A DNA stretch of 64,000 nucleotides from Actinobacteria bacterium IMCC19121 (GTDB taxonomy: Bacteria; Actinomycetota; Actinomycetes; Nanopelagicales; Nanopelagicaceae), in contig CP015605.1 in the NCBI GenBank assembly GCA_002284895.1, positions 1,240,001-1,304,000 on the forward strand. The letters are read 5' to 3'. The position numbers and the translations under genes are program-made. Within the stretch, counting starts at the first letter, position 1; every line of letters starts with the position of its first letter. The notes under the pieces are model-generated. The model had not been told where the DNA came from. It made no database searches and worked only from the letters and a program-made list of their open reading frames with translations. Shown piece after piece: positions 58,959 through 61,521 of the stretch.

Positions 58959-59789
58959 TTATTGACCCACGCGGAAGCGATTGAACGCCTTAACGGCTGT
59001 TCCTGCCTCATCGAGGATCTGCTTTACAGATTTCTTGGCATCTTTAGCAAAAGATTGCTCAATCAAAGAAACTTCCTTGACGAAGCCTGTTACGCGACCT
59101 TCAATGATCTTGATGAGGGAAGCTTCTGGCTTTCCTTCCTCGCGTGCAGTCTCTTCTGCGATACGACGTTCGTTTTCGATTAGTTCAGCAGGAACATCTT
59201 CGCGATTTACAAACTGTGGAGCAAAGGCTGCGATGTGCTGAGCAATATCTTTACCAACTTCAGCTGCATCCTTAGTTAATTGAACTAGAACGCCAACTTG
59301 TGGTGGCAAATCTGGGCTTGTACGGTGCAAGTAGATTCCAACTGGAGAATCCTTCAACACTGCAATTCGGCGAACTTCAATCTTCTCGCCAAGAGTTGCA
59401 TTTGCCTCATCAACAGTTGCCTGAACGGTTTTGCCGCTAGACATTGTTGTTGTGAGGAATGCCTCTAGCGAATCAGATTGCGCATTTTGTAGGTGAGCAA
59501 GTAGCTCATCTGCAAGTGCAACGAAGCGCTCACCCTTAGCAACGAAGTCTGTTTCGCAGTTAAGTTCTAGCATCACACCAAGATTTCCTTCAACCTTTGC
59601 AACTACTGCACCGTTTGAAGTTAAACGACCTTCACGCTTTGTGACTCCCTTGAGTCCCTTAACGCGAATAATGTCGATCGCCTTGTTGTAATCGCCTTCT
59701 GCTTCATCCAAAGCTTTCTTGCAATCAAGCATTCCAGCAGCTGTTGCTTCACGAAGATTCTTAACGTCTTGCGCTGTATATGCAGCCAT
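58959..59789 (-). CDS. tsf: Elongation factor Ts
   Basis: Nucleotide exchange factor for EF-Tu. The N-terminal UBA-like domain (YTAQDVKNLREATAAGMLDCKKALDEAEGD) and KLEVNCETDFVA-type line (ELNCETDFVAKGERF) are present. Length 276. Four bases after rpsB; same operon. Confidence 0.96.
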   Translation of the reverse strand: MAAYTAQDVKNLREATAAGMLDCKKALDEAEGDYNKAIDIIRVKGLKGVTKREGRLTSNGAVVAKVEGNLGVMLELNCETDFVAKGERFVALADELLAHLQNAQSDSLEAFLTTTMSSGKTVQATVDEANATLGEKIEVRRIAVLKDSPVGIYLHRTSPDLPPQVGVLVQLTKDAAEVGKDIAQHIAAFAPQFVNREDVPAELIENERRIAEETAREEGKPEASLIKIIEGRVTGFVKEVSLIEQSFAKDAKKSVKQILDEAGTAVKAFNRFRVGQ

Positions 59790-59793
59790 TTAA

Positions 59794-60612
59794 TTAAGCT
59801 CCTTCTGTTACTGCGGTTGCTTCTGCTGTTACTTCAGTTGTTCCAGCAATCTCTTTTTCCCAATCAGCTAAAGGCTCACCAGCTGCAACTGCAGGGGCTT
59901 CATCCTTTACTTCGCTCTTAGCCTGTGCTGAACGTGCAGCAAGACCAGCAGCGATTGCATCAGTGATAACGCGAGTCAAAAGACCGATTGAACGGATCGC
60001 ATCGTCGTTACCTGGAATCTTGTAGTCAACTTCATCTGGATCACAGTTTGTGTCCAAGATTGCTATAACTGGAATACCAAGCTTCTTGGCTTCCTGAACA
60101 GCTAAGTGCTCCTTCTTAGTATCAACAACCCAGATTGCTGAAGGCAACTTAGTCATGTTACGGATACCGTTGAGGTTCTTAAATAGTTTTTCGCGTTCGC
60201 GACGAAGAACAAGAAGTTCCTTCTTTGTAAGAAGTAGATCGTTCTTCTCTTCTAGAGCTTCTAGCTCCTTCAGACGCTGAATACGCTTGTAGACAGTTGG
60301 GAAGTTTGTAAGCATTCCACCTAACCAGCGCTCAGTCACTGTTGGCATACCAACACGTGCTGCTTGCTCGATGATTGGTTCCTGTGCTTGCTTCTTTGTT
60401 CCAACAAACAAAACGTGACCGCCCTTTGCAACTGTGTCCTTAACGAACTCATATGCATTGTCGATGAGCGCAAGTGATTGCTGGATATCGATGATGTAGA
60501 TGCCATTGCGCTCTGTGAAAATAAAACGCTTCATCTTTGGGTTCCATCGACGAGTCTGGTGTCCGAAGTGGACTCCGCTGTCGAGAAGTTCTCGCATTGT
60601 TACTACTGCCAT
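59794..60612 (-). CDS. rpsB: 30S ribosomal protein S2
   Basis: 272 residues with the S2 lines [44 protein letters not shown] and [30 protein letters not shown]. The ATG at 60612 has AAGAAGGAG upstream; the frame open to 60714 runs through the leader and is not coding. It is preceded by a strongly folded 215-base leader. Confidence 0.97.
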
Positions 60613-60641
60613 GACGGCATACTCCTTCTTAGGTTTATTTA

Positions 60642-60765
60642 TGTGCGCAGCACAATAAAAAACCCGCTCGGTTTTGGCCAAACAATTTGTTGGGCCCGTC
60701 GCACTGAAAGTCATCTACCGATTTAACGGACCGAGATGATTCACCCACTAAAAGTGAGGCAGTGC
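60642..60765 (-). ncRNA. rpsB leader RNA: three-way junction plus terminator-like hairpin
   Basis: In the rpsB mRNA, GCACTG (60760-60765) and CAGTGC (60701-60706) close a perfect 6-bp stem around two hairpins: CTCACT-TTT-AGTGGG (60744-60758; 6 bp with one U-G) and CATCT...AGATG (60712-60738; 5 bp with an inner CCG/CGG). Downstream come GGCC...GGCC (60676-60696), then AAAACC-N5-GGTTTT plus Ts (60657-60675), like an attenuator, and TGTGC-TGC-GCACA (60642-60654). The arrangement suits S2 feedback by attenuation; the T-rich hairpin might instead end the upstream xerC operon. Confidence 0.6.
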
Positions 60766-60828
60766 TGAGATGTCACCGCAATTTCTTGTGGTGCGAGGCA
60801 AATCTTACCTGAGCCGTGAGCGTGCTAA

Positions 60829-61521
60829 TTACCGCCCAACTATGCGTAAAAGCCCCCAAGCGCTGATGCGCAACACCGCTTCTAGGGCAATTGCAAAGCT
60901 CATCTTGCTGACCCCATGTTCGCGCTCGATAAAAGTGATGGGAACTTCAGCAATTGATCCACCCCTGGCAAGTGCCCTGCGAGTCATCTCGATTTGAAAG
61001 CAATATCCCTCGCTAGCAATTGTTTGGATATCCATCTTTTTTAATAGTGAGGCTGAATAGATTCGAAAACCTGCAGTTGTATCGGCCACCCCAAGGGATA
61101 AGACAACATTTGCATACTTATTAGCAGCCTTTGAAAGCAGCTCTCGAAACTTGCTCCAGTTGGCAATCGTGCCATCAGCAACCCAGCGTGATCCAATTAA
61201 TAAATCAGCTGATCCAATCCATTGCATCATCGCCACTAAATCTCTTACTTGGTGTGATCCGTCGGCATCCATTTCAATAATGTTTTCATACCCACGATCA
61301 AGTGCAATCTGAAAACCGGCACGATAAGCACTTCCCAATCCTTGCTTGCCGCTTCGTTCAATAACTTCAACCCCATGGGCTTTACAGATTTGTGCTGTGC
61401 CATCAGGTGAGCCGTCATCAATGACTAGAACATCAAGATCGAGTGTGGCCAATTCATCGAGTAGTGAGCCGATGCTCTCAACTTCGTTATATGTTGGAAT
61501 AACAACGATAGATTTATTCAT
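60829..61521 (-). CDS. GT2 glycosyltransferase (polyprenol-phosphate mannose synthase type)
   Basis: Single-domain GT-A enzyme of 230 residues. VVIPTYNEVESIG, DDGSPDGTA and EMDADGSHQ (metal-binding DxD) match dolichol/polyprenol-phosphate mannosyltransferases (Ppm1/DPM1), with the C-terminal ITFIEREHGVSKMS line. No membrane anchor. Actinobacteria use such enzymes for lipoglycans and protein mannosylation. It overlaps xerC by 4 bases and precedes the rpsB leader; it is not usual at this locus. Confidence 0.87.
   Translation of the reverse strand: MNKSIVVIPTYNEVESIGSLLDELATLDLDVLVIDDGSPDGTAQICKAHGVEVIERSGKQGLGSAYRAGFQIALDRGYENIIEMDADGSHQVRDLVAMMQWIGSADLLIGSRWVADGTIANWSKFRELLSKAANKYANVVLSLGVADTTAGFRIYSASLLKKMDIQTIASEGYCFQIEMTRRALARGGSIAEVPITFIEREHGVSKMSFAIALEAVLRISAWGLLRIVGR

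Follow-up and report, generated by a model that had tools for sequence, protein, structure and literature searches.

The stretch upstream of rpsB in the window (the whole 64,000-nucleotide stretch of DNA analysed here) most plausibly encodes an S2 autoregulatory leader of rpsB-tsf found in most of the actinomycetes examined, a far-diverged counterpart of the Proteobacteria S2 leader that would act on translation initiation; judging by comparative sequence analysis, we put the probability of this reading at roughly 0.7. Comparison of related leaders reveals the helices, a pseudoknot, a steady placement of that pseudoknot near the Shine-Dalgarno sequence (SD), and an association with rpsB alone. 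The leader lies between a glycosyltransferase-like gene, which ends at 60829 and borders it, and the start at 60612 of what we take, from recognition of the encoded proteins, to be rpsB and, further downstream, tsf (Table 1).

Table 1. Genes and leader elements in the window (positions counted from its first letter)
Feature	Coordinates	Strand	Basis or remarks
rpsB (ribosomal protein S2)	59794..60612	-	reading frame; relatives by protein search
tsf	58959-59789	-	downstream of rpsB; reading frame
-10-like box TAAGAT	60802..60807	-	transcript start expected near 60795
P0, 5′ hairpin	60774..60793	-	outer stem CACC 60793-60790 / GGUG 60777-60774
Conserved linker ACAUCUCA	60766..60773	-	conserved columns in A1 and A3
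P1 5′ strand, closing stem	60760..60765	-	covariation in A1 and A3
P1 3′ strand	60701..60706	-	covariation
P2 side-arm hairpin	60744..60758	-	sequence and length variable; missing in some relatives
P3 arm	60711..60739	-	outer stem 60739-60736/60714-60711, inner stem 60729-60727/60720-60718, pseudoknot strand between
Pseudoknot 5′ strand CUCGGU	60730..60735	-	within P3; partner 60672-60667
P5 hairpin (GGCC hairpin of the original prediction)	60676..60696	-	covariation and folding z-score
Pseudoknot 3′ strand ACCGAG	60667..60672	-	pairs with CUCGGU
P6 spacer hairpin	60631..60665	-	15 pairs; separates pseudoknot from SD; competes with AAAACC/GGUUUU
Shine-Dalgarno AAGGAG	60622..60627	-	sequence; conserved among relatives

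Compensatory changes in the rpsB leader

The original prediction, made from the window alone, described a perfect closing stem around two inner hairpins, followed by a GGCC hairpin and an attenuator-like AAAACC/GGUUUU stem with a T-run just before the ribosome-binding site. Most of this is readily found on the minus strand: the closing stem (P1) joins GCACUG (60765-60760) to CAGUGC (60706-60701) with every pair perfect; the first inner hairpin (P2), CUCACU/AGUGGG (60758-60753/60749-60744), has 6 pairs including one U-G; the second, UCAUCU/AGAUGA (60739-60734/60716-60711), is present in P3; and the GGCC hairpin (P5) pairs 60696-60689 with 60683-60676 with one mismatch. AAAACC/GGUUUU (60675-60670/60664-60659) and the T-run are also there, but the T-run does not immediately precede the ribosome-binding site, as it sits within P6, which separates it from the SD. 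The fold so described is only the middle part of a larger element, whose 5′ hairpin P0, pseudoknot, and P6 hairpin had been missed.

Single-sequence folding of a 216-nt stretch gives z -2.06, equalled by 6 of 200 shuffles; the window alone is thus only mildly unusual, and the case for structure beyond chance, which had been claimed from it, must rest on relatives. Protein searches located rpsB in 52/60 relatives, 190/201 genomes of the order, 145/148 of the class, and 197/197 of a phylum sample; 80 loci came from named genomes including Streptomyces, Nonomuraea, Nocardia, Mycobacterium, and a Candidatus Nanopelagicales genome, and another 100 leaders were retrieved by genomic place. In alignment A1 (24 order-level leaders), 15 of 30 pairs change on both sides versus 8.6 in shuffles, double-change cells number 85 versus 25.1 (neither value reached by any of 500 shuffles), and 87.2% of cells are paired versus 77.0%, a count made with the pseudoknot columns one out of register. 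In alignment A3 (42 class-level leaders), 78.4% of cells are paired versus 65.8% shuffled, with 239 double-change cells versus 104.2 (0/500 shuffles in each case); slid versions pair 30.7-44.2% of cells, a control that favours the true version in that the helix registers were set by best pairing on A3 itself. Two weaker measures on A3 give 24 both-side-changed pairs versus 21.2 shuffled (37/500) and 80 further pair types versus 72.7 (4/500).

Helix by helix, the cells of P0 in A1 are 100% paired, with double changes in 2/4 pairs, and those in A3 are 65.5% paired with double changes in 6/6, order-level P0 stems being partly cut off; P1 has double changes in 5/6 pairs (95.7% of cells paired) in A1 and 6/6 (85.7%) in A3; the outer and inner stems of P3 are 94.8% and 98.6% paired in A1, 71.4% and 83.3% in A3; and P5 is 95.8% paired in A1, with double changes in 5/8 pairs, and 73.9% paired in A3. 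The fold is real: helices and pseudoknot show compensatory changes, and the structured leader with covarying stems is borne out by the very covariance test that the original prediction had proposed. A chance fold, or conservation without structure, would suit the low z-score of the window taken alone, but the double changes that keep P0, P1, P3, and P5 paired, set against slid and shuffled controls, rule it out, and its probability is negligible.

Aligned relatives share a common plan: P0, a linker GAC(A/U)UC..., P1, GACGG or (C/U)AGG, P2, P3, P5, and AACC. The linker together with the last G of P0 reads GACAUCUCA in the window and GACUUC(G/A)C in many class leaders, and the P1 3′ strand is followed by GACGG (60700-60696) in the window and by (C/U)AGG in most other class leaders. 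For z-scores and promoter counts we dropped 23 leaders with wrong or doubtful pseudoknot anchors as well as exact duplicates, which left 185. Against letter shuffles, P5 folds with z < -1 in 179/179 leaders having room for it, and P2 with a median z of -2.07 over 168 leaders (z < -1 in 117/168), while 17 leaders have no room for such a hairpin. P2 is seemingly missing from five leaders (L051, L055, L081, L235, L238) that retain P1, P3, and the pseudoknot, so that it looks dispensable. Three leaders (L020, L058, L059) carry big extra insertions in P2 and the P3 loop.

The transcript probably begins 5′ of all these helices. In 159/185 leaders a TAnnnT box is found 3-12 nt ahead of P0, versus 4/183 at a control position 40 nt further up, and the TAAGAT box of the window places the expected start just 5′ of P0; a start downstream of 60700, one of the circumstances that the original prediction had named as refuting it, is accordingly unlikely. 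A consensus promoter scan, which requires a -35 box, found no promoter.

The pseudoknot, its distance to the SD, and the attenuator question

CUCGGU in P3 is complementary to ACCGAG downstream of P5, a stretch formerly taken as arm and loop of the attenuator. Stem-based segmentation began with 232 leaders of at least 200 nt; removal of 8 without anchors, 10 with a weak P1, and 1 without AAC left 213, a few of which are one contig under two labels. The anchors were set on GU ahead of a pyrimidine and on AAC plus C or U; this fixes the first two pairs in advance, but beyond them the anchors are blind to pairing. Of the 213 leaders, 186 form 4 or more contiguous pairs, counting the two that the anchors impose; the exact CUCGGU/ACCGAG combination occurs in 83 of the 213; and 15 other hexamer pairs (25 leaders) hold double changes that preserve pairing, such as CCUAGU/ACUAGG (L136) and CCUGGU/ACCAGG (L183, L187), with CGCAGU/ACUGCA (L148) forming 5 pairs. 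When partners were swapped among leaders, a test that grants the first two pairs to both sides alike, the 63 leaders with a 3′ strand other than ACCGAG averaged 4.59 native pairs versus 4.00 swapped (maximum 4.38 in 1000 swaps), and all 213 leaders 5.28 versus 4.93 (maximum 5.06). The alignment columns themselves hardly vary: in A1 both strands are invariant and 100% paired in an in-register count, and in A3 94.8% of cells are paired with a double change in 1/5 pairs. The 27/213 leaders with fewer than 4 pairs include some anchoring errors. In L028, L071, and L091 the presumed pseudoknot of AGGU with ACCGGAA would need a bulge, and the pairing is uncertain.

The pseudoknot keeps a steady distance from the SD. 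In 58 leaders, a few of them mis-anchored, the 3′ strand lies less than 20 nt from the SD (median 6 nt); many Streptomyces leaders are of this kind, with about 6 nt and no hairpin between. In the other 155 the gap is long (median 32 nt), but the P6 hairpin leaves a median residual distance of 4 nt, exactly 4 nt in 68/155 and also in the window; letter-shuffled spacers leave 7 nt and fold with -8.3 kcal/mol, versus -15.9 kcal/mol for the native ones. The likely pseudoknot 3′ strand also reaches the SD in 3 of 20 leaders from other classes, running into it in L249 (ACCGAAGG) and L252 (ACCGG then AGG) and abutting it in L260 (ACCGCG then AAGGAG), the partner in each being the best of many positions and not a blind test.

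Could the AAAACC/GGUUUU stem and T-run instead be an intrinsic terminator, gated by S2 or by the upstream fold, as the attenuator of the original prediction implies? Stem and T-run exist, the stem with 5-7 pairs in 27/47 distinct genus leaders; a terminator-like pattern is scored at 60685-60664, but with another stem (2 such patterns in the region versus 0.5 expected); and, as ACCGAG cannot join the pseudoknot and this stem simultaneously, a switch is thinkable. Yet the stem reaches only 4 pairs in 20/47 of the same leaders, and its folding energy in the window is -4.4 kcal/mol versus -11.6 for P6, the averages over the 47 being 5.0 pairs and -3.5 kcal/mol for the stem and 12.2 pairs and -12.3 kcal/mol for P6; the T-run is replaced in genus leaders by UUAUUUUUG, UUCUUCG, and similar words; and the Streptomyces leaders with the short gap have no hairpin there. 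Judged by the spacing and by the genus leaders, no conserved terminator hairpin with a U-run precedes rpsB. Its ACC also belongs to the pseudoknot and its GGUU to P6, and we read the stem as arising incidentally from those two: it is weak, poorly conserved, and in competition with both, and transcription attenuation through it is very unlikely.

Distribution and kinship with known S2 leaders

An order-level covariance model (R2) matched 24 times at E<=1 across 100 loci and was replaced by a class-level model (R3), whose P1 is shifted by one base in the six seeds of the window's genus type. Scanned over the whole genomes of the class (148, at least 15 of which supplied seed sequences), R3 finds 112 matches at E<=0.01 in 111 genomes, and every one of the 112 sits immediately 5′ of rpsB and on the same strand, those below 0.001 at a median of 41 nt from the rpsB gene match. 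The first match away from rpsB comes at E 0.0104, and 11 of the 12 with E from 0.01 to 0.1 are away from that gene too; in the genome that contains the window, a single match reaches E<=1. The 37/148 genomes without a match at E<=0.01 include 3 that had no rpsB hit in the protein search, as well as several whose leaders show the same words by eye (L166, L190, and L191, for example). One genome (G251) has two rpsB copies, on contigs C9 and C67, each preceded by an R3 match (E 5.4e-6 and 9.6e-10); the C67 copy has an in-frame TAG. The two copies may be a duplication or reflect a mixed assembly. In three others (G003, G005, G220) the rpsB protein match crosses one in-frame TAA.

Rfam holds two S2 leaders, rpsB (RF01815) and t44 (RF00127), and both match E. 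coli, RF01815 below its cut-off. At E<=10, RF01815 (cut-off 40 bits) does not match the window, and it exceeds its cut-off nowhere in 118 class genomes, where 0/7 weak matches lie at rpsB, or in the phylum sample of 197 genomes, 18 of them in the class. t44 (cut-off 44 bits) has none in the window or in the 18 class genomes searched, and none over the cut-off in the 197 phylum genomes, where the best, 39.4 bits, is in another class; a scan of 14 class loci against all of Rfam returned neither family. The actinomycete leader is therefore not a member of RF01815 or RF00127 as modelled. The original prediction had recognised no known family in it; this holds in the sense that no Rfam S2-leader family matches the window at E<=10, but not for the architecture, which is that of RF01815/RF00127.

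The likenesses are several. In excerpts of Meyer et al. 2009 (PMC2704228) the rpsB motif has a P1, a three-stem junction, and a J2-3 pseudoknot with a 3′ extension, and is reported from Proteobacteria, Cyanobacteria, and some Firmicutes, the Actinobacteria not being named in those excerpts. The actinomycete leader likewise precedes rpsB, where the R3 matches put it in what is probably the 5′ UTR, and likewise has a pseudoknot between the junction and a 3′ extension after P1 (compare PMC2704228, in the same excerpts); P1 and the pseudoknot show compensatory changes, while the mapping of P2 and P3 onto the published stems is our own reading. The RF01815 consensus has a UAACCGG strand near the SD, where the pseudoknot 3′ strand lies here, but the actinomycete leader adds P0, the side-arm P2, P5, and P6, and its linker words differ. 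By eye, t44 likewise has P1 with a hairpin inside it and an AAC-bearing 3′ extension, but shows GAGGC after P1 in place of GACGG or (C/U)AGG, and its consensus has no counterpart of P0 or P5. Rfam types RF01815 as sRNA, and E. coli RefSeq labels the stretch with the rpsB leader (L158 413-548) "putative small RNA T44".

We hold with good confidence, from these sequence features, that the actinomycete leader is of a common kind with the rpsB/t44 S2 leaders, and with fair confidence that they share common descent. An independent origin in Actinomycetes, yielding a leader that merely resembles rpsB/t44, would explain why both Rfam models miss the leader in the class genomes searched, why R3 fails to match the E. 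coli leader at E<=1, and why P0 and P5 lack a t44 counterpart. It nevertheless appears unlikely, as t44-like leaders occupy the same place in other classes of the phylum: t44 has 18 matches at E<=1 in the 197 genomes, all sub-threshold and all outside the class, 13 of which, including the 8 best, lie directly upstream of rpsB, with 1 elsewhere and 4 unplaced (G519, G435 with two, G535). Two of 20 retrieved other-class leaders match t44 (E 1e-4 and 7e-4), and 17 of the 20, on inspection, have GAGG...AAC words as in both forms, a loose pattern. RF01815 has 10 matches in the phylum sample, ranks 1, 2, and 4 being upstream of rpsB, 6 elsewhere, and 1 unplaced. Outside the class, R3 itself finds no S2 leader at E<=0.001 and one weak rpsB match (G373, E 0.86).

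Structured r-protein leaders are known from the same phylum: actinobacterial L31 and L17 leaders are described in parts of Eckert et al. 2020 (PMC7247131), and in mycobacteria a pseudoknot upstream of the start is needed for autorepression by S15 (rpsO; PMC8470358, in excerpt), a functional parallel only, with another protein and gene. The greater part of Table 1 of PMC7247131 lists no Actinobacteria S2 leader, and the paper's main text mentions rpsB once, in a row on an L13 leader from Bacteroidia; a term search of PMC3765725 and PMC4681348 met r-proteins in the reference lists only. Our literature search found no S2 leader of Actinomycetota, which does not show that none is in print, and turned up neither binding nor expression results on S2 in an actinomycete.

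Proposed control of S2 synthesis

S2 probably switches off its own production through this leader. The transcript would begin at P0; P1 would close a junction with two arms, P3 and the variable P2; CUCGGU of P3 and ACCGAG downstream of P5 would form the pseudoknot, its 3′ strand ending near the SD, with P6 bridging the gap where it is long; and free S2, in excess over 30S subunits, would bind and stabilise junction and pseudoknot, so that 30S loading would be blocked and less S2 and EF-Ts made. We infer S2 as the ligand, repression as the effect, and translation rather than transcription as the level: self-regulation by S2 fits both the exclusive placement of the R3 matches ahead of rpsB and the known S2 leaders, and the way the pseudoknot stays near the SD suggests that S2, by stabilising it, would sterically block 30S loading. 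Repression of rpsB-tsf by S2 in E. coli is translational and assisted by S1, and the operator there reportedly excludes the ribosome-binding site (review, PMC10931766, in excerpt); the blocking step may therefore differ here.

A constitutive leader, one that protects the mRNA or aids 30S loading without S2 feedback, is a rather improbable alternative. P0 at the extreme 5′ end does resemble a stabilising hairpin, regulation by S2 is a hypothesis here, and some r-protein pseudoknots also serve ribosome binding, as in the S15 leader of mycobacteria (PMC8470358, in excerpt). A general stabiliser would, however, also precede other genes, and the link with rpsB alone at E<=0.01, together with the layout of S2-controlled leaders, argues for a specific ligand.

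A bolder version of S2 autoregulation is tentative at best. S2 touches helix 35 of 16S rRNA, and the genome's own 16S rRNA holds CGUCAGCUCGUG...CAACGAG, in what we take to be the place of helix 35, resembling CUCGGU...CAACCGAG of the leader; the likeness is a lead only. One ancient S2 leader might span Proteobacteria, Cyanobacteria, and Actinomycetota, having become in Actinomycetes a modular clamp in which CUCGGU/ACCGAG mimics 16S helix 35 and the 3′ strand is kept at a distance of 4-6 nt before the SD, directly or by means of an excisable spacer hairpin; S2 binding would then close the ribosome site by geometry.

If the leader is indeed an S2 autoregulatory element, the whole class, including Streptomyces and mycobacteria, gains a testable control element for S2 and tsf that Rfam did not detect in the class genomes searched. 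The range of S2 leaders, as given in excerpts of PMC2704228, would be extended to Actinomycetota, and the spacing suggests a rule linking pseudoknot and SD that points to where regulation may act.
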